NCBI GenBank assembly: GCA_017889545.1 | Contig: JAGFZV010000009.1 | Span: forward strand, 1-64,000 | From: Bacillota bacterium | GTDB taxonomy: Bacteria; Bacillota; Negativicutes; CTSoil-072 | Length of the DNA: 64,000 nucleotides | Direction of reading: 5' to 3' | Part shown: piece by piece, positions 5,400-16,301 of the stretch | Position numbering within the stretch: the first letter of the stretch is position 1 | How the letters are laid out: every line of letters starts with the position of its first letter | Notes under the pieces: model-generated | Told to the model about the DNA's origin: nothing | Database searches by the model: none | What the model saw: only the letters and a program-made list of their open reading frames with translations | Position numbers and translations under genes: made by a program

Positions 5400-5723
5400 T
5401 TATTTTTTACAGTCACAACTCACATTTCCGGCAACTATTTCCTTCCAGTCTCCAATGGCATCATGGGTCCAGCAATCGTCTGCGCCAGCTGCTTCACGCA
5501 TCGTCAATGCAAAGATATAAGACAACTCCCTGACCGTCGCTCCGGCTTCCAGCGCGCCTTTAAAATGCTTAAGCACACAAGGTTTAGAGCGGCCTTTGAT
5601 CGAAAGAGCAAAACAAATAAATTGATATGTTTTTTCATCAATCATTCTTTTTTCTTGATAAAGCCGATCTATTTCATCCAGCTTTTCAGCAAATTCAGGA
5701 AAAAATTCAGCCAGCATTCTCAT
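5400..5723 (-). CDS. AhpD-like (carboxymuconolactone decarboxylase fold) protein
   Basis: 107 residues, all helical, with the CMD/AhpD core: SKPCVLKHFKGALEAGATVRELSYIFALTMREAAGAD. The usual AhpD CxxC-x2-H is reduced to a single-Cys form, C-V-L-K-H; two more cysteines lie at the C-terminus (CDC). In known AhpD the Cys pair is reduced by a lipoyl domain and dihydrolipoamide dehydrogenase, and both are encoded in the same operon here, which supports a thiol-redox role. It is the last gene, 18 bp after arsR. Exact reaction is unknown. Confidence 0.7.
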   Translation of the reverse strand: MRMLAEFFPEFAEKLDEIDRLYQEKRMIDEKTYQFICFALSIKGRSKPCVLKHFKGALEAGATVRELSYIFALTMREAAGADDCWTHDAIGDWKEIVAGNVSCDCKK

Positions 5724-5741: not shown

Positions 5742-6071
5742 TTATTTATCTTTCAAAAATTTCAATATGCTTTGGCTGCGGCCAATTTGCTCACTTAACG
5801 TTTTTTCCGCAGCGCTGACCACATCAAGAACCGATGGATAAACAATCTGATAGATCACTTTTTGACCATCCTTATGGGAATCGATAATCCCCTGCTTTTT
5901 CAATACGCCCAAATGTTGCGATAAGTTTGATTGCTCAATGTCAACTTCCTCGATGATTTCACACACGCAGCGCTCACCTTTCTCCAACGTATGCAGAATT
6001 TTTATCCGCGCCGGATGAGACAGCGTTTTAAAAAAATCAGCCGTCATTTTTACAACAATGTCTTCCGCCAT
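5742..6071 (-). CDS. ArsR/SmtB-family metal(loid)-responsive repressor
   Basis: 109 residues with the ArsR winged helix (FFKTLSHPARIKILHTL ... EQSNLSQHLGVLKKQGII). GERCVCEIIEEV carries the Cys-x-Cys pair that in ArsR senses As(III)/Sb(III). The start at 6071 follows TTGGGAGG; an upstream frame is not used. It sits as gene nine of a ten-gene unit whose promoter holds the palindrome ATTTGAT-G-ATCAAAT (10568-10582), so it may repress the whole unit from inside. Ligand is inferred from the Cys pair. Confidence 0.88.
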   Translation of the reverse strand: MAEDIVVKMTADFFKTLSHPARIKILHTLEKGERCVCEIIEEVDIEQSNLSQHLGVLKKQGIIDSHKDGQKVIYQIVYPSVLDVVSAAEKTLSEQIGRSQSILKFLKDK

Positions 6072-6445: not shown

Positions 6446-6670
6446 TCAAATTTTCAGTTTTAATGGCCCGTGGAAAAAGTGCAAATCCCGCCTTGACAGC
6501 CCCAAGCACTCATATCTAAGTTTTCTTCCGGCAATCATCATGCCGAAAGCTATGACCAGCGCAATGCTCAGACTTTTTTTCTTGCCTTCGCGCCGCATGC
6601 CATGACTATGTCCATGGCTGTGACTATGATTACAACCTTCATAACCATGAGTGTGAGTATCCATATTCAT
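6446..6670 (-). pseudogene. Truncated CDF (CzcD-type) metal transporter N-terminus
   Basis: 74 residues. The N-terminus is His-rich (THTHGYEGCNHSHSHGHSHG) followed by SLSIALVIAFGMMIAG, the start of the first membrane helix of cation diffusion facilitators. The homology then stops and an unrelated tail (RKLRYECLGLSRRD...) leads to the stop. A full CDF protein has about 300 residues, so this looks like a deletion remnant. It could still be expressed as a small His-rich metal-binding peptide, since it keeps its place (22 bp after a DGC gene) in the operon. Confidence 0.55.
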
Positions 6671-6692: not shown

Positions 6693-7157
6693 CTAACAAT
6701 CGCATCCGCAACTACAGGATGAACTCTTTCGAGCGCCTGAGTCTTTCCCTTTCGCGTTCATAATTTCATCAAACTGCTTCGTTATCTCAGCCGCCACTTT
6801 GTCCACCATGGCCTGATGTTCTGTTGTCAGGTCCCGGGTAGATAATGCCGGGCTTTCTGCGAATTCATCGCCGATAATTTCCGAAACAAAAACCACACTG
6901 TTGACCTTGCCGCTATATTTTTCTGTGGCGCGTTTGGCACAAGCCTGTTTGCAGCCGTCAACAGCAATCGTCGGGTATTCCTTGGCAAACATTCTTTCCT
7001 CTTGTCCACCCGCTATAAAGAGCGGTAAGCAAATAGTTACGGTATTGTCAGGCCGTATCTCGTCTATCATTTTCCGTGTGGCTAACCGGGAGATTGTTCC
7101 GCCGGCACAATCTTCTCCACTGCATGATACAACGCCGATTTTCAATTCTTCCGCCAT
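6693..7157 (-). CDS. DGC-domain putative zinc-binding protein with Cys-rich tail
   Basis: 154 residues. The N-terminal VVSCSGEDCAGG and central VDGCKQACAKRA are the conserved Cys motifs of the DGC family (putative zinc-binding). The C-terminus adds SSSCSCGCDC, a probable extra metal or thiol site. ATG at 7157 follows AAAGGAGGAG. It lies 4 bp after another DGC gene, and three DGC proteins follow each other in this unit. The biochemical role of DGC proteins is not established; the neighbours (lipoyl fusion, Lpd, Fe-S proteins) suggest sulfur, selenium or metal redox chemistry. Confidence 0.75.
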   Translation of the reverse strand: MAEELKIGVVSCSGEDCAGGTISRLATRKMIDEIRPDNTVTICLPLFIAGGQEERMFAKEYPTIAVDGCKQACAKRATEKYSGKVNSVVFVSEIIGDEFAESPALSTRDLTTEHQAMVDKVAAEITKQFDEIMNAKGKDSGARKSSSCSCGCDC

Positions 7158-7161
7158 GTTC

Positions 7162-7572
7162 CTATCTCTCCTCCTTTTGGATTTCCTGTACCCGCTCGGC
7201 GATCTTTGCTGCAATTTCTTCCGTAATGGCCCAGCCTTCCGGTGTCAATTCCGTCGCAGTTCCCGGTTTTGCCCCTTTGTGCAATTTCATGACATCAAGT
7301 ACTTTTAATTCTTCCTTGATATCGCCGCCCATAGCAGCCACGCTTTTTGCCGAACACATAGCCGGACAGCCATCAACTGTAATACAGGGTTGATTATCAA
7401 ATCCAGCCAACGCTTCCTCATCACCGGTAACAATATACGCCAAGCAAAGCGTCTTTGCCTGTTCCGGGCAAAGACGCTGCACTGTATGCAGCACCGCTTC
7501 GCGAGCCATCAGTCCATATACCTTTCCCATGCCGCTGCAAGCGATAACGTTAACCTTTTTGTTTGTTGACAT
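7162..7572 (-). CDS. DGC-domain putative zinc-binding protein
   Basis: 136 residues from the ATG at 7572, preferred over an ATG nine bases upstream that touches the AAAGGTGG site. VIACSGMGKVYGLMAREA at the N-terminus and ITVDGCPAMCSAKS in the middle give the DGC pattern, though the first motif keeps only one Cys. The start lies inside the 3' end of the upstream fusion gene (22-bp overlap), pointing to translational coupling. Role unknown; see the operon finding. Confidence 0.75.
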   Translation of the reverse strand: MSTNKKVNVIACSGMGKVYGLMAREAVLHTVQRLCPEQAKTLCLAYIVTGDEEALAGFDNQPCITVDGCPAMCSAKSVAAMGGDIKEELKVLDVMKLHKGAKPGTATELTPEGWAITEEIAAKIAERVQEIQKEER

Positions 7573-8425
7573 GGAATTCATCCACCTTTTTCTTTAAGAT
7601 TTTCATATAATCTGCCGTGTTCAGCAGAAAATCTTTTTCTTCGTCAAAATTGGTCAATTCCAGTTCAGCAACCCAGCCTTGCTCATACGGATTTTCATTG
7701 ATCCGTTCCGGCGCAGTCAATAGTTCTGTGTTCACTGCCACAACTTTGCCGCTGACCGGGCAAATCAGCTCGAAAACCGCTTTGCCGGATTCGACGTTTC
7801 CGGCTTCGTCGAATTGTTCCAATTCTACCCCGACTGGTGGCGGCGTAAAGAACATAATATCCGACAAACTTTGCTGCATGAAGTCCGTGATCCCGATACG
7901 GGCCCGATTACCGACGACCTGCAGCCAGCAATCGTTCTCCGAAAAATAAAATCCTTCGGTCGGCACACGGAAAATAAACTTATCTTTTTTATGGATGAGG
8001 TACTCTGCAGGAGCAGGAAATTCCACAGCTTGAACCATTTGTTCCGGTACGGCGGTTTCTTCTTTGATGAATTCATCCGCCATCGCAGTACAAAGGGCAA
8101 TTTCTTTTTCGCTGAGTCGAAGCGTATCTGTTGGCAGTGTCACGCCCCGTTTTTGCGCCTCTTCCGTCACCGTCATTTTGCGAAAAATTTTCAAGCCCTT
8201 TTCGCCGGCCAGTTTGCTGGCGCAGCGTGTTCCGCAGCCATCCACAACCAACAGCGGATTTTCTTTTGCGATCTTATCATAGCGGGCATCAGCAACCCGG
8301 TAAAATACCGGACAAATCATTTCATTTTGCGTGCCTTCGCAAAGAAGCATCGCAATTTCTTTGGTCATTTGCCCAGCACATTTGTCCAGGCCATTGCAGG
8401 GTAAAACAGCGTATTTGTCACTCAT
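7550..8425 (-). CDS. Fusion of a DGC domain with a lipoyl-type GcvH-like domain
   Basis: 291 residues. Residues 1-85 are a DGC domain (LPCNGLDKCAG with C10 and C16; VDGCGTRCAS with C64 and C68). Residues about 150-270 are a glycine-cleavage H-protein-like domain: RARIGITDFMQQSLSDI, then VESGKAVFELICPVSGKV, in which K215 fills the lipoyl-lysine place of H proteins, then NPYEQGWVAELEL. No glycine decarboxylase genes are nearby, so a role in glycine cleavage is unlikely. Lpd, encoded three genes upstream, is the natural partner to reoxidise or reduce the lipoyl arm. It overlaps both neighbours by a few bases. Confidence 0.82.
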   Translation of the reverse strand: MSDKYAVLPCNGLDKCAGQMTKEIAMLLCEGTQNEMICPVFYRVADARYDKIAKENPLLVVDGCGTRCASKLAGEKGLKIFRKMTVTEEAQKRGVTLPTDTLRLSEKEIALCTAMADEFIKEETAVPEQMVQAVEFPAPAEYLIHKKDKFIFRVPTEGFYFSENDCWLQVVGNRARIGITDFMQQSLSDIMFFTPPPVGVELEQFDEAGNVESGKAVFELICPVSGKVVAVNTELLTAPERINENPYEQGWVAELELTNFDEEKDFLLNTADYMKILKKKVDEFHVNKQKG

Positions 8426-8717
8426 GACTGCTCATCGCCTCCCGCGTTTCTTTGATTTTCTTCGATACTTCCGCCTTACTGGGGAAGGTTAGCGCATCCG
8501 GACCACACGTTTTGCTGCAGGCCCGGCAAAATACCACACAATTCAAAGGGTTGGCAACGACAAGCTTGATCGGTTCATTTTCCCGTTTTTCAAATACATG
8601 GTGCGGACAAAAGTCAAAACATTCCATGCAGTAGTCGCATTTTTCATAATCAATCGTCGGTTTCCAGTCAATCGTATCTCTGGGCACACCCATAAAGGTA
8701 TCTTTGTCTTCGCTCAT
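8418..8717 (-). CDS. Two-cluster 4Fe-4S ferredoxin-like protein
   Basis: 99 residues. The first cluster motif is CDYCMECFDFCPHHVF (Cx2Cx2Cx3CP-like); the second is less regular, NCVVFCRACSKTCGPDAL. Cytoplasmic, no transmembrane segment. The stop overlaps the start of the DGC/H-like fusion gene and its start abuts the HdrA-like gene, so the three are tightly coupled. It probably passes electrons between the HdrA-like domain and the lipoyl/Lpd couple; direction is unknown. Confidence 0.82.
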   Translation of the reverse strand: MSEDKDTFMGVPRDTIDWKPTIDYEKCDYCMECFDFCPHHVFEKRENEPIKLVVANPLNCVVFCRACSKTCGPDALTFPSKAEVSKKIKETREAMSSHE

Positions 8718-9100
8718 TATTCTTCATCCCCCTCAAAACCCAATTCTTTAAGCGCTTTTTTTACTTTTTCAATCGCCTTTTCATTGGTCATGTCTCGAAT
8801 ATCGAGCATAACAGCATCTTTTTCCACATCAAGCCCCGCATCCTTAAAAGCCTGTTTAAACATTTTTTTCTGCATATTGGGCGCGCAGGCTCCAATGATT
8901 ACCTTCCTGTTTGCTTTCAAAAAGTCCGCTAGAAAACGGTCGCCATCTTCTTCACAGAGCTGCGGATGAATGAATCCGTATTCTACCGGAAGTTCCACCC
9001 GTACCTGGTTGATAAAGTCCCAAATGTCCATTGCCTTAAATCCCGGACACTTTCCTGTGCATACGCACATAATAAAGCCATAACGTTCTTTTTCTTCCAT
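8717..9100 (-). CDS. Stand-alone HdrA N-terminal-like domain
   Basis: 127 residues from ATG 9100 (GGGAGGAA 8 nt before). It resembles only the first 120 or so residues of heterodisulfide reductase subunit A: IMCVCTGKCPGFKAMDIWDF at the N-terminus, QLCEEDGDRFL, VIIGACAPNMQKKMFKQAFKDAGL, then IRDMTNEKAIEKVKKAL. The FAD domain and C-terminal ferredoxin domains of HdrA are missing. Conserved cysteines probably hold an Fe-S cluster or a disulfide. Lies between lpd and the ferredoxin gene. Confidence 0.72.
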   Translation of the reverse strand: MEEKERYGFIMCVCTGKCPGFKAMDIWDFINQVRVELPVEYGFIHPQLCEEDGDRFLADFLKANRKVIIGACAPNMQKKMFKQAFKDAGLDVEKDAVMLDIRDMTNEKAIEKVKKALKELGFEGDEE

Positions 9101-9144: not shown

Positions 9145-10542
9145 CTATGCTTTGTGGATCGAGCGTCCGACTGCATCGGCGCACGCTTCCATAACGGCTT
9201 CGCTCAACGTGGGGTGAGGATGAATAAGATCCGCAACCTCATCGGCGGTATGACGGAAAGCGATCGCCATTGTCATTTCGGAAATCAGTTCCGTCGCGGA
9301 TGATCCAAAAATTTGTGCGCCTAGAATAATGTGGCTCCGGCTATCCGTAACAACCTTCACCAGTCCTTCCCGTTCGCCCATGCACAAAGCTCGTCCGTTG
9401 GTACGGAACATGAAGCGTCCTACCCGCACTTCATAGCCGTTTTCAACGGCTTCTTGCTCCGTCATGCCGACTGCAGCCAATTCCGGCTGAATATACACAC
9501 AAGACGGAAGCGCATGATAGGTCATGACCTTCGACATCCCCAGCGCATTTTCTACCGCGATCCGACCTTCCGCATATGCTTTGTGGGCCAGCATCTTTCC
9601 GCCAATTACATCACCGGCCGCATAAATTCCCGGAAGGCTTGTTTGCAGATGTTCATTAACGATCAAGGCCCCCTTTGCATCCGTTACCGCCCCTAATGCA
9701 AGCAATCCTCTCGGTACTGACGGTTTTCGACCGGCAGCAAGCAGCACGTAGTCGGCTTCCAGCTGTTCTTCTTTTTCTTGGCGTAAAAATTTCACAGTCG
9801 TTCCTGAATCAGCAGCAGTAATTCCCGTGACTGTGCTGGATAATTGGATTGCAATTCTTTGGCGTTTCATACTCTTCAGTACTTCAGCCGCCATTTCACC
9901 GTCTTCGTTGGGCAAAACCTGATCGGCCATTTCGATAATGGTAACCTTGCTTCCTAGTTCATTAAACATCTGGGCAAACTCCAGGCCAATCACTCCGCCG
10001 CCGATGATGGTCAAGCGGTTTGGTACAGCTTCCATCTCTAGGATTTCGTTACTCGTCAGTACAGTCGGTGCGTCTATTCCCGGGATAGGCGGCCGCATCG
10101 GCACAGACCCGGTAGCTACAAGAAATTTCTTGCTCTGTAGTTCCAGCACGCCTTCTTCTGTTTCCACCTTCAACCGGTCAAAATGAGTAAAATCCCCTTT
10201 TCCTTTAACAAGATGGATCCGGTCGTTGCGCAGCAAATATTCCACACCCATGCGTAGGCTCTTAACCACCCTGGCTTTTCGGCTGTGCGCTGCGGACCAA
10301 TCTATTGGCAGCATTGAAGTCGTCACGCCAAATTCTGCTCCTTTGCGGAAAAGAGCATTGAACTCCGCTGTCCGCAACAATGCCTTGGTTGGGATACAGC
10401 CTCGATTTAAGCACACGCCGCCAATTTGATCGTGTTCAACGATGGTAACACGCGACCCAAGCTGCGCAGCCCGAATGGCTGCCAAATATCCGGCTGGCCC
10501 TCCGCCCAAAATAACAAGATCCGCTCGTTCTTTCCAATCCAT
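9145..10542 (-). CDS. lpdA: Dihydrolipoamide dehydrogenase (E3)
   Basis: 465 residues, full length. FAD site GGGPAGYLAAIRAAQLG, redox-active disulfide GGVCLNRGCIPTK, NAD site GGGVIGLEFAQMFNELG, second FAD site GIYAAGDVIGGKMLAHKA, and the C-terminal catalytic HPHPTLSEAV (His-Glu). First gene of the ten-gene unit; GAGGAGATGGAG precedes the ATG. There is no 2-oxoacid dehydrogenase E1/E2 nearby, so its partner is probably the lipoyl H-like domain of the fusion protein three genes downstream. Reaction: NAD(H)-linked oxidation or reduction of dihydrolipoyl/lipoyl. Confidence 0.95.
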   Translation of the reverse strand: MDWKERADLVILGGGPAGYLAAIRAAQLGSRVTIVEHDQIGGVCLNRGCIPTKALLRTAEFNALFRKGAEFGVTTSMLPIDWSAAHSRKARVVKSLRMGVEYLLRNDRIHLVKGKGDFTHFDRLKVETEEGVLELQSKKFLVATGSVPMRPPIPGIDAPTVLTSNEILEMEAVPNRLTIIGGGVIGLEFAQMFNELGSKVTIIEMADQVLPNEDGEMAAEVLKSMKRQRIAIQLSSTVTGITAADSGTTVKFLRQEKEEQLEADYVLLAAGRKPSVPRGLLALGAVTDAKGALIVNEHLQTSLPGIYAAGDVIGGKMLAHKAYAEGRIAVENALGMSKVMTYHALPSCVYIQPELAAVGMTEQEAVENGYEVRVGRFMFRTNGRALCMGEREGLVKVVTDSRSHIILGAQIFGSSATELISEMTMAIAFRHTADEVADLIHPHPTLSEAVMEACADAVGRSIHKA

Positions 10543-13086: not shown

Positions 13087-13455
13087 ATGAGTGATATTCA
13101 ATCCAATAGTGAAAAACGAATTGTATACTCCTGCTCCGGATGTGCCGATGTGGGTGAATTGGCGGATCAGGTCTCTCGGAAGCTCCGCAAAGATGGGTAT
13201 GCCAAAGCTAGCGGCAGTTGTCTTGCCGGGATCGGAGCCGGATTCTCTTCTTTCATTGATGCTGCTAAAGAGGTCGAAACTGTCGTTACCGTTGATGGCT
13301 GTCCAGTCGGCTGCGCCAAAAAGATAATTGAAAATATTGGAATTACTCCACAAGCTATATTTTTGACCGAACTGGGCGTTGTAAAGGGACAGACTGCTGT
13401 AACACCCGAATTAATCAACCAAATGACACAATCAGTCGCCAAAAAGTTATCCTAG
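13087..13455 (+). CDS. DGC-domain putative zinc-binding protein, solitary
   Basis: 122 residues. YSCSGCADVGELADQV at the N-terminus and TVDGCPVGCAKKIIENIG in the middle show the DGC pattern; SGSCLAGIGAG adds a further Cys. It is the fourth DGC gene in 7 kb and the only one with its own promoter, lying just before the arsenic genes. AGGGAGG stands 9 nt before the ATG. Function unknown, likely linked to metal(loid) or sulfur stress. Confidence 0.78.
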   Translation: MSDIQSNSEKRIVYSCSGCADVGELADQVSRKLRKDGYAKASGSCLAGIGAGFSSFIDAAKEVETVVTVDGCPVGCAKKIIENIGITPQAIFLTELGVVKGQTAVTPELINQMTQSVAKKLS

Positions 13456-13656: not shown

Positions 13657-14658
13657 CTAATGAGCTGCAAAATATTTTTTAAAATACAATGCCACATTTA
13701 CCAAGCCAATCATCACCGGCACTTCAATCAGCGGTCCGATCACCGCAGCAAACGCCTCGCCGGAATTGATACCAAAAATAGCTACCGCAACTGCAATGGC
13801 GAGTTCGAAGTTATTGCTGGCAGCCGTGAAGGACAAGGTGGTTGTTTGCTCGTAATTGACTCCCATTCGCCAACTCAGCAAAAACGAAATCAAAAACATG
13901 ACTGCGAAATAAATAATCAACGGAATAGCAATCCGCACCACATCCATCGGTAGTTTCACAATATAGCTGCCTTTAAGTGAAAACATAATTACAATGGTAA
14001 ATAATAGAGAAATCAGCGCCAGAGGACTGATCTTAGGAATAAAGGTATTCTCATACCAGTCGCGACCTTTAGCAGGCAGCAAAAATCGCCGCGTAAGATA
14101 CCCCGCCAGGAAAGGAATACCAAGGTAAATCGCCACACTCATGGCTACATCCTGCATGGAAACCTGAATTTTCATCCCCGTAAACCCAATCCAGCCCGGC
14201 AATACCGTAATGAAGAAATAGGCAAAAATCGAATAAAATATCAGTTGAAAAATGGAATTTAATGCTACCAATGCTGCGGCATATTCCGTATCACCGTCCG
14301 CCAGCGAATTCCAAATAATCACCATCGCTATGCAGCGAGCAAGGCCGATTAGAATCAACCCTACCATGTATTCCGGCTGATCCGCTAAAAAGGTAATCGC
14401 CAAAATAAACATCAGCACCGGGCCGATGATCCAGTTTTGCACCAAAGATAAGACCATGACTTTAACATTGCGAAACACATTGCCCAGTTCCTCGTATTTC
14501 ACCTTGGCCAGCGGCGGATACATCATGACAATCAAACCAACCGCAATCGGTATGGAGGTCGTCCCAATCGTAAACTTGTCCAGCCACGCGGCAATTCCCG
14601 GAAACAAATAACCTCCGCCAACACCAATCGCCATTGCCACAAAAATCCACAATGTCAA
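13657..14658 (-). CDS. acr3: Arsenite efflux permease, ACR3 family
   Basis: About ten membrane segments; [19 protein letters not shown] contains the conserved Cys needed for As(III) transport in Acr3. The protein exports arsenite from the cytoplasm. From the TTG at 14658 it has 333 residues, but the family N-terminus [15 protein letters not shown] is encoded in frame upstream (to 14688), preceded by TTA and a TAA stop, with no ATG, GTG or TTG. Start is therefore unresolved (CTG at 14670 or a lost start codon). It follows the radical SAM gene by about 50 bp and probably shares its transcript with arsR. Confidence 0.92.
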
Positions 14659-14711: not shown

Positions 14712-15911
14712 CTACGGACAAGCAATCATCCTTCTGGCCCACAGACAGTCGGCACAGGATGGACTGTTGCCCCAGCAATCCATTTCGTTGCTTTCGGTAT
14801 AATTGCACCCGTCCAACGATTTGCAGTCCGTGCAGGAAGGAAAATGATAGTCCTTTACGGTTTGCCTGAAACGGACATAACGGGAATCCATCCAAATCTC
14901 ACGCAATGGTTTTTCGTTCACATTTCCCAAATGGTAAGCACTCATTCGCTTTTTCCGTCCATAGACATAACATTGATAGCTATGCATCAACGCATAGCAA
15001 GGACTGATATACCCCATATGATTGATACACAATGATTTATCGGCAATAAATTTACAATATCGCTCGGTTCGCAATTTCATATTTGCCATCTGCGCACGAA
15101 TCGAAGTCAAGAGTGAATCTTGACCAAATAAGTTTCCGGTATCATCCAAATCATAGACAATTTCATCCTTCATGGATTCATGATAAGGCATCAAATTGGT
15201 AACCACCACTTGGCTGGCATGCAAATCCCAGGCTAACCGGATCAGCTTCGGCAGACGGGCAAAATTTTTCTTCATCGCAACGAATTCAATACCAAGCTCC
15301 GGTTTTTTCGTGTTCTTTTCCTGCTTTAACGATTGCAACCGGACAACATTCTGATAAACACTTTGAAAATTGGCGCCTTGCCGAATTGCATTGTATTCCT
15401 CTTCTTCCGGACTATCTAATGAGGTAAACAAGACATCCAATTCAAGATCAATCAAGTTCCGAATCATTTCTTCCCGCAAAAACGATCCGTTAGTAATCAT
15501 TTCTACTCTCAATCCAAGCGACTTTACTGCTTTCAACATGTCAAAAATACGTGGATGCATCATGGGTTCACCAAAACCGCCAAAGTGAACTGACTGCAAG
15601 TCGGGTAACCCTTTGAGGCTTTCCAGTATATTTTCAAACGTTGTCCAATCCATGTGAATTAATTCATCTTCCCATGAACTGCGAATACAGGTTATGCAAT
15701 CAAAATTGCATTTCGTAGTAACTTCAATATAGATCCGTTTGACATCCGGAAGCAACGGCACGATCTGATAACCATCTGCTGTTTTAAAAAATAAAGCATC
15801 CTGTTCTTGTTTTAAAGATATCGGCAGTTTGGTAGAACCATCTTTTTGAATCCTTACTTTCTCTCCGGCTGTTAAACACTGAATTTGCGGTTTTTGCAAT
15901 GACCTTTTCAT
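14712..15911 (-). CDS. Radical SAM/SPASM protein in the ars operon
   Basis: 399 residues from ATG 15911 (GGAGG 6 nt upstream). Radical SAM motif CNFDCITC (CxxxCxxC) after YIEVTT, GGFGEPMMHP as the SAM-binding GGE-like motif, and a Cys-rich C-terminal SPASM-type region (CINHMGYISPCYA ... CTDCKSLDGC ... CWGNSPSCADC) for auxiliary Fe-S clusters. CITCIRSSW resembles radical SAM maturases linked to tungsten oxidoreductases, but no such enzyme is encoded here. Between arsR and acr3 it may modify an arsenic compound or a peptide. Substrate unknown. Confidence 0.8.
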   Translation of the reverse strand: MKRSLQKPQIQCLTAGEKVRIQKDGSTKLPISLKQEQDALFFKTADGYQIVPLLPDVKRIYIEVTTKCNFDCITCIRSSWEDELIHMDWTTFENILESLKGLPDLQSVHFGGFGEPMMHPRIFDMLKAVKSLGLRVEMITNGSFLREEMIRNLIDLELDVLFTSLDSPEEEEYNAIRQGANFQSVYQNVVRLQSLKQEKNTKKPELGIEFVAMKKNFARLPKLIRLAWDLHASQVVVTNLMPYHESMKDEIVYDLDDTGNLFGQDSLLTSIRAQMANMKLRTERYCKFIADKSLCINHMGYISPCYALMHSYQCYVYGRKKRMSAYHLGNVNEKPLREIWMDSRYVRFRQTVKDYHFPSCTDCKSLDGCNYTESNEMDCWGNSPSCADCLWARRMIACP

Positions 15912-15932
15912 ATTCTTCCTCCACACAACCCA

Positions 15933-16301
15933 TCATAATCGCATTGTTTTATTTTCAGTAAGTTCTTCGCACCCTATGCCGCTTTCTTTGTGTTTCTTTA
16001 ACTGCAACAAGTCCGCTTGACATTGTTGCAGCCTTGTCAAGTCTTCATGAAAGAGGGCATTCAAAAACGAAAATTTTTCAAGTATATTTCTATCAAGCCG
16101 GTAATATATCCATTGCGCTTTCTTTTCGCCGATAATCAATTTGGCATTTTTGAGTTTCGTCACATGGCGCGATGCGTTGGACTGGCTTAAATTCAGGATC
16201 ACTTCCAGTTCACATACGCACAAGGCTTCCTGCCTCAACAAGTTGATAATGCGAATTCTATTTTCATCTCCAAGTGCTTTGAGCACGTCCAAAAATTCCA
16301 T
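15933..16301 (-). CDS. arsR: ArsR-family arsenical repressor
   Basis: 122 residues. LKALGDENRIRIINLL and SQSNASRHVTKLKNAKLI form the winged helix; EALCVCELEVIL holds the As(III)-sensing CVC motif. First gene of the arsR-radical SAM-acr3 unit (21 bp to the next gene). Divergent from the marR-arsM unit across a 284-bp intergenic region that probably carries operators for both. Confidence 0.92.
   Translation of the reverse strand: MEFLDVLKALGDENRIRIINLLRQEALCVCELEVILNLSQSNASRHVTKLKNAKLIIGEKKAQWIYYRLDRNILEKFSFLNALFHEDLTRLQQCQADLLQLKKHKESGIGCEELTENKTMRL

Follow-up and report, generated by a model that had tools for sequence, protein, structure and literature searches.

What might a lipoyl-bearing H-protein domain do when it is joined in a single chain to a DGC domain, a family recorded as zinc-binding, and when glycine-cleavage genes are missing from its surroundings? 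This question is raised by an open reading frame in the window, i.e. the whole stretch of 64,000 nucleotides that was analysed, with the following features:

7550..8425, minus strand: DGC–GcvH fusion protein, 291 aa, an architecture shared by 17 loci
8135..8410, minus strand: DGC domain, residues 6–97, with invariant C10, C38, C64 and C68 (Pfam)
7589..7948, minus strand: GcvH-type lipoyl domain, residues 160–279 (Pfam GCV_H)
7781..7783, minus strand: K215, predicted lipoyl-lysine in ESGK (alignment to solved H proteins), invariant in fused H domains
7928..7930, minus strand: C166, in the column of pea H Glu14 (alignment)

Both Pfam assignments exceed the curated cut-offs (DGC 6–97, E 1.6e-17; GCV_H 160–279, E 2.5e-31), and the score against the DGC family PF08859 is 63.9 bits for a gathering cut-off of 27, with the DGC motif and the conserved cysteines present. 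The fusion seen in the preliminary description is thus confirmed, and an assembly artefact is ruled out by the identical junction in 17 loci. The H part retains E212-S-G-K215, and phmmer alignments place K215 in the lipoyl-lysine column of the pea (1dxm), Thermus (1onl) and mycobacterial (3ift) H proteins, which bears out its initial designation as the lipoyl position; among solved structures, the closest relatives of this second domain are without exception H proteins of glycine cleavage. All 16 fusions that cover the position have K215, and all 17 loci retain C10, C38, C64 and C68; C16 and C29 are variable among DGCs. The predicted structure of the fusion has an overall pLDDT of 72.7, and residues 206–218, the stretch of K215 and the presumed lipoyl hairpin, fall below 50; the model was set aside for the placing of K215.

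Not counting the host, 4 of 300 genomes from the class and 8 of 398 from the phylum carry the fusion. A genome contig collection adds Lucifera butyrica (Negativicutes) and metagenome-assembled genomes named Bacteroidales, Dehalococcoidales and Bacillota; the Dehalococcoidales match may reflect transfer or mis-binning, because only 1 of the 245 genomes of that class carries the fusion. Viral contigs contained no relative of the fusion, and plasmids neither the fusion nor a relative of the third DGC protein listed below.

The GCV_H match and the intact ESxK site would be expected of an ordinary glycine-cleavage H protein, or of a lipoate relay donor, to which the DGC domain had been joined by accident. 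Indeed, the fusion has in common with GcvH (PF01597, TIGR00527) the fold family and many core residues, but it scores below the gcvH equivalog cut-off (TIGR00527, 96.9 vs. 115.85 bits; PRK01202, 113 vs. 117), it carries a DGC domain, and it has no P or T partner: as first noticed, neither gene is near, and the single GcvT of the host lies on another contig, beside a gcvH and a gene pair interpreted as gcvPA/gcvPB. GcvT is absent from one fusion genome (G500) and from the three genomes with an unfused form of the cassette (G397, G443, G469), four assemblies with a completeness of 99% or more. The sequence of the H domain has diverged as well, the HEW that is invariant in glycine cleavage system (GCS)-linked proteins being mostly D-C-W in fused H domains, and ESVKAxSD having become ES(G/A/S)K(A/S)VxE. 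The column of pea H Glu14 holds Cys in 12 of 15 fused and in 3 of 3 unfused cassette H domains and Glu in all 30 GCS-linked GcvHs, that of Asp67 corresponds to E219 of the fusion and is Asp in 30/30; in pea H these two residues hold aminomethyl-lipoate. At the position of C166, several fused proteins have Val. In a tree of H domains, for which the program warned of long branches, the 15 fused H domains group together at 97/95, and fused and unfused cassette H domains separate from the 30 GCS-linked GcvHs at 95/94. Since the host has separate gcvT and gcvH genes, a 99%-complete fusion genome lacks GcvT, the H domains form a distinct branch, and Glu14 and Asp67 are replaced, the fusion is not a component of glycine cleavage, and the probability that we leave to the accidental fusion is negligible. 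Two further GcvH–DLDH pairs without GcvT are found in the host, an OsmC–GcvH–DLDH set (L045:6461-8721, contig C18) and a GcvH–DLDH pair with a glutaredoxin-like protein (L044:5470-8193, contig C5).

The genes around the fusion bear on its role. It lies in a minus-strand cassette in which successive genes overlap or are separated by short gaps, in the order DLDH, HdrA-N, ferredoxin, fusion, DGC, DGC:

9145..10542, minus strand: dihydrolipoyl dehydrogenase (DLDH), cassette gene 1 (TIGR01350, 523 bits vs. cut-off 408.8)
8717..9100, minus strand: stand-alone protein like the HdrA N-terminal domain (HdrA-N), ~127 aa (NCBIfam HdrA, E 2.6e-5; PDB 7bkb_A, E 4e-4)
8418..8717, minus strand: 2[4Fe-4S] ferredoxin-like protein (Fer4)
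7162..7572, minus strand: second DGC protein (DGC2), overlapping the end of the fusion gene (Pfam)
6693..7157, minus strand: third DGC protein, with a Cys-rich tail CSCGCDC (Pfam; sequence)
5742..6071, minus strand: ArsR/SmtB regulator with the CVCE motif of As(III)-type ArsR (NF033788)
5400..5723, minus strand: CMD/AhpD-like protein (PF02627, E 4e-4, slightly under cut-off)
13087..13455, plus strand: fourth DGC protein of the window, adjoining ACR3 (PF08859)
13657..14658, minus strand: ACR3 arsenite efflux transporter (TIGR00832, 446 bits vs. cut-off 282.8)
15933..16301, minus strand: second ArsR, with an LCVCEL motif (motif; profile)

Downstream, the cassette is followed by a shortened CDF-like reading frame, the ArsR with CVCE and the CMD/AhpD-like protein; upstream of DLDH, at 13.1–16.3 kb, are found the DGC gene, ACR3 and the second ArsR. 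The CDF-like frame (6446-6670) resembles CDF cation-efflux proteins in its His-rich start and is apparently truncated by a deletion or frameshift; full-length homologues (313–324 aa) occur in L038–L040. Between the second ArsR and ACR3, at 14712-15926, is encoded a radical SAM maturase of a tungsten-cofactor oxidoreductase (TIGR04317, 429 bits vs. cut-off 380), relatives of which are present in two further fusion loci.

Over the 17 fusion loci, HdrA-N is a neighbour in 16, a further DGC in 16, DLDH in 10 and ferredoxin in 12 by annotation or 16 by profile, counts that, like those for the arsenic and lipoylation genes given below, are not independent: a single genus contributes four of the loci, a single genome two, and contig ends cut several short. 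Five cysteines are invariant in 16/16 HdrA-N sequences and eight in 12/12 ferredoxins. ArsR is found near 14 of the 17 fusion genes, ArsC near 3 and ACR3 near 7; in the other 10 loci ACR3 is absent within the stretch read. The CxC motif is present in 18 of 19 ArsRs. One locus (L042) encodes both ArsA and ArsD above cut-offs, and in L. butyrica (L040) the order is ACR3, ArsC, LipA, cassette, ArsC, ArsR, ACR3. This organism comes from acid rock drainage and has ArsA, ArsD, ACR3 and ArsC genes, including two runs at locus numbers 1661–1669 and 1685–1687 (PMC6315149); from the gene order we infer that the cassette sits between these two runs. For comparison, 20 non-fusion DGC loci were picked by DGC score from other genomes and read with flanks of about 6 kb, as far as the contig extended; ACR3 was found near 14 and ArsR near 12 of them, and neither in 20 control regions (20 kb) taken from largely the same genomes. 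By one-sided Fisher test, 14/20 vs. 0/20 gives about 2e-6 and 7/17 fusion loci vs. 0/20 gives 0.002. The ACR3 assignment was checked with TIGR00832 in the window and two other loci. The linkage of fusion and DGC loci to ars systems (ACR3/ArsR/ArsA) is thus above background.

These observations suggest that the fusion provides the lipoyl carrier for a thiol-redox module of lipoyl and DGC proteins dedicated to arsenic detoxification in anaerobes, a reading to which, judging from sequence and genomic context, we assign a probability of about 0.58. That a lipoyl arm might serve a cysteine partner within the same chain had been proposed from the sequence, and this part finds support in the invariant K215 and DGC cysteines, the replaced GCS residues, the GcvT-less fusion genome, the adjoining lipoylation genes and the unfused GcvH–DGC–DGC operons; for the nature of the cargo, thought at the time to be a metal or sulfur, gene context points to arsenic instead of sulfur or zinc.

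In the DGC domain, for which four candidate ligand cysteines had first been noted, four cysteines (C10, C38, C64, C68) are invariant, in fused and stand-alone DGCs alike, and zinc is a family label: nothing supports it as the DGC function beyond the family name. In the literature we found experimental work on a single DGC protein, AnvM of P. aeruginosa, whose Cys44 is reported to be the most oxidation-sensitive cysteine found in a survey of the proteome; in the solubilised protein, which came from inclusion bodies, metals including Zn were undetected (PMC6650552). Cys44 aligns with C38 of the fusion. Because of this sensitivity and the undetected metals, a reactive thiol fits better than a structural zinc site, with the origin from inclusion bodies as a caveat. 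AnvM resembles the fusion in its four invariant cysteines, but it is a single-domain protein, encoded in a nar region and described as an anaerobic and virulence modulator (PMC6650552). DGC proteins thus also occur outside arsenic gene neighbourhoods, another example being found near nos in Cupriavidus. The AlphaFold model of DGC2 has a pLDDT of 91.8; no PDB relative was recovered by profile and no Foldseek match at E <= 0.001, and the best VIA-align Z, 7.9, is at background level. Prediction of function from the fold was rejected, a Rossmann-like alpha/beta fold being uninformative in this respect.

How such an arsenic module could operate may be outlined as follows. K215 would be lipoylated by a neighbouring or host LplA, and its dithiol would be kept reduced by DLDH with NADH, the HdrA-N/ferredoxin pair being a likely second entry of electrons. 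For thiol exchange, the lipoyl arm would swing to reactive DGC cysteines, both those in its own chain and those of the stand-alone proteins, a pentavalent or thiolated arsenical would be reduced at the DGC cysteines, and the resulting As(III), held as a thiolate either by these cysteines or by dihydrolipoyl and Cys166, would be handed to ACR3 (or ArsA) for export. With respect to the first step, LplA is found near the fusion in 5 of 17 loci and LipA in one other (L040), together 6/17. The host has two LplA-type proteins and no LipA detectable by TIGR00510; LipA is missing from several other fusion genomes too and present in several more. Because LipA is missing, lipoylation in such carriers would need scavenged lipoate or LipS1/LipS2, which have been reported in Sporomusa (PMC10332631).

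Not all parts of this scheme are equally firm. The general proposal of an arsenic-dedicated lipoyl/DGC module is much firmer than its reductase step, which we hold to be tentative and somewhat on the doubtful side. A fully specified version, a lipoamide-dependent arsenical reductase and carrier in which NADH (DLDH) or ferredoxin (HdrA-N) would supply the electrons for the reduction of arsenate or thioarsenate by DGC cysteines, and As(III) would pass from dihydrolipoyl and Cys166 to ACR3, appears unlikely in this exact form. The same arsenic neighbourhood, with ArsA and ArsD in one locus, would also suit a pure As(III) chaperone, in which the dihydrolipoyl dithiol together with DGC cysteines or Cys166 would bind As(III) as a thiolate of three sulfurs and, in the manner of ArsD, deliver it to ACR3 or ArsA; DLDH would do no more than keep the dithiol reduced, and no arsenical would be reduced. 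The Cys in the Glu14 column is in line with such a site, and most loci are without ArsC, so that As(III) may be the form encountered. However, the conservation of Cys166 is not strict, and the low-potential HdrA-N and ferredoxin are hard to account for if the dithiol is reduced only occasionally; a pure chaperone is in our estimation rather improbable.

A lipoyl carrier outside glycine cleavage, also GcvH-like and accompanied by dedicated ligase genes and an Hdr-related protein, is already known in LbpA of the sHdr sulfur oxidation system (PMC6067878). In grouping DLDH, LplA, part of HdrA and an ArsR regulator with a GcvH-like carrier, the fusion loci parallel the sHdr–LbpA clusters (PMC6067878), and some loci contain cysteine desulfurase-like, TauE and CcdA genes, so that the lipoyl arm of the fusion might be thought to move sulfane sulfur between thiol enzymes, DGC taking the place of TusA or DsrE. 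On the other hand, both conserved cysteines of LbpA, located near its N- and C-termini (PMC6067878), are missing: C166 is not universal, and the fusion alignment shows no conserved C-terminal Cys in the H part. Moreover, of the Hdr complex the HdrA N-domain alone was found, neither HdrB nor HdrC being noticed on reading the loci, the ArsRs carry the CxC motif, and ACR3 is the most telling neighbour. A sulfur carrier is therefore decidedly improbable.

The distribution of HdrA-N also speaks for the arsenic reading. Of 398 genomes, the nine that bear the fusion, and no others, have a close HdrA-N (> 200 bits), and a second group (104–130 bits) is found in 15 other genomes. As ArsR is present in all 7 contexts read from this second group, in genomes without the fusion (L157–L163), with ACR3 and ArsC as well in L158, L161 and L162, HdrA-N is linked to arsenic in its own right.

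The unfused form mentioned above was found in three genomes (L123, L126, L131), where separate GcvH, DGC, DGC, OsmC and DLDH genes lie beside ACR3, LipA following directly in two of them. From these GcvH–DGC–DGC operons and the grouping in the tree, the fusion appears to have brought into one chain two partners that had been acting together before. The OsmC genes of these operons, and the AhpD-like CMD genes near several loci, could be understood as part of a general thiol or peroxide defence relay of DLDH, lipoyl arm and AhpD/OsmC-like proteins, placed near ars genes since arsenic causes thiol stress. Relays in which NADH, DLDH, a lipoyl arm and a cysteine protein act outside carbon metabolism are represented by the mycobacterial Lpd–DlaT–AhpD–AhpC system and the lipoyl-dependent Ohr/OsmC peroxidases; from these the fusion cassette differs in substrate, carrier and cysteine partner. 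The hyper-reactive DGC cysteine of AnvM (PMC6650552) would not be out of place in such a defence, but no OsmC was noticed in the fused cassettes, and the strong enrichment concerns ACR3, an arsenite-specific pump; we consider a general defence role highly improbable.

The arsenic-dedicated module has partial counterparts among known systems. GcvH-L of the SirTM–macrodomain operons is another GcvH-like protein outside glycine cleavage that has an LplA and redox partners of its own, but no sirtuin or macrodomain gene was noticed in the fusion loci and the other neighbours differ. With ars operons (ACR3, ArsR, ArsA/ArsD, ArsC) the cassette has the neighbourhood and the CxC-type ArsR in common; nevertheless, we know of no described ars operon with a lipoyl carrier, and to our knowledge no core protein of the cassette is an established Ars protein. 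A literature search, with most subscription journals outside its reach, found no DGC–lipoyl or lipoyl–arsenic system. Lipoate is among the best-known targets of arsenite and a classic victim of arsenite poisoning. If the proposed module exists, this relation would be reversed, the victim becoming the cofactor that handles arsenic, and lipoate would gain a role beside carbon metabolism and sulfur oxidation. A testable function would also follow for DGC proteins, entered in records as 'putative zinc-binding protein', and for stand-alone HdrA N-domains, both of which lie beside arsenic genes.

Some further observations were made on reading the loci. The window encodes a chromate transporter family protein (PF02417) at 1556-2770. 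In L051:1425-2162 the third DGC protein has a C-terminal extension of about 90 aa that contains GGGGCPCQNWML. Finally, one combination recurs in L113, L115, L118, L127 and L129: ArsR, DGC, an ArsE-family thioredoxin and a permease of 390 aa with a distant resemblance to SaoE, joined in some cases by a cysteine-desulfurase-like protein; the small thioredoxin being named ArsE-family, ArsEFG was considered, and the set is possibly a second type of DGC-based arsenic operon.
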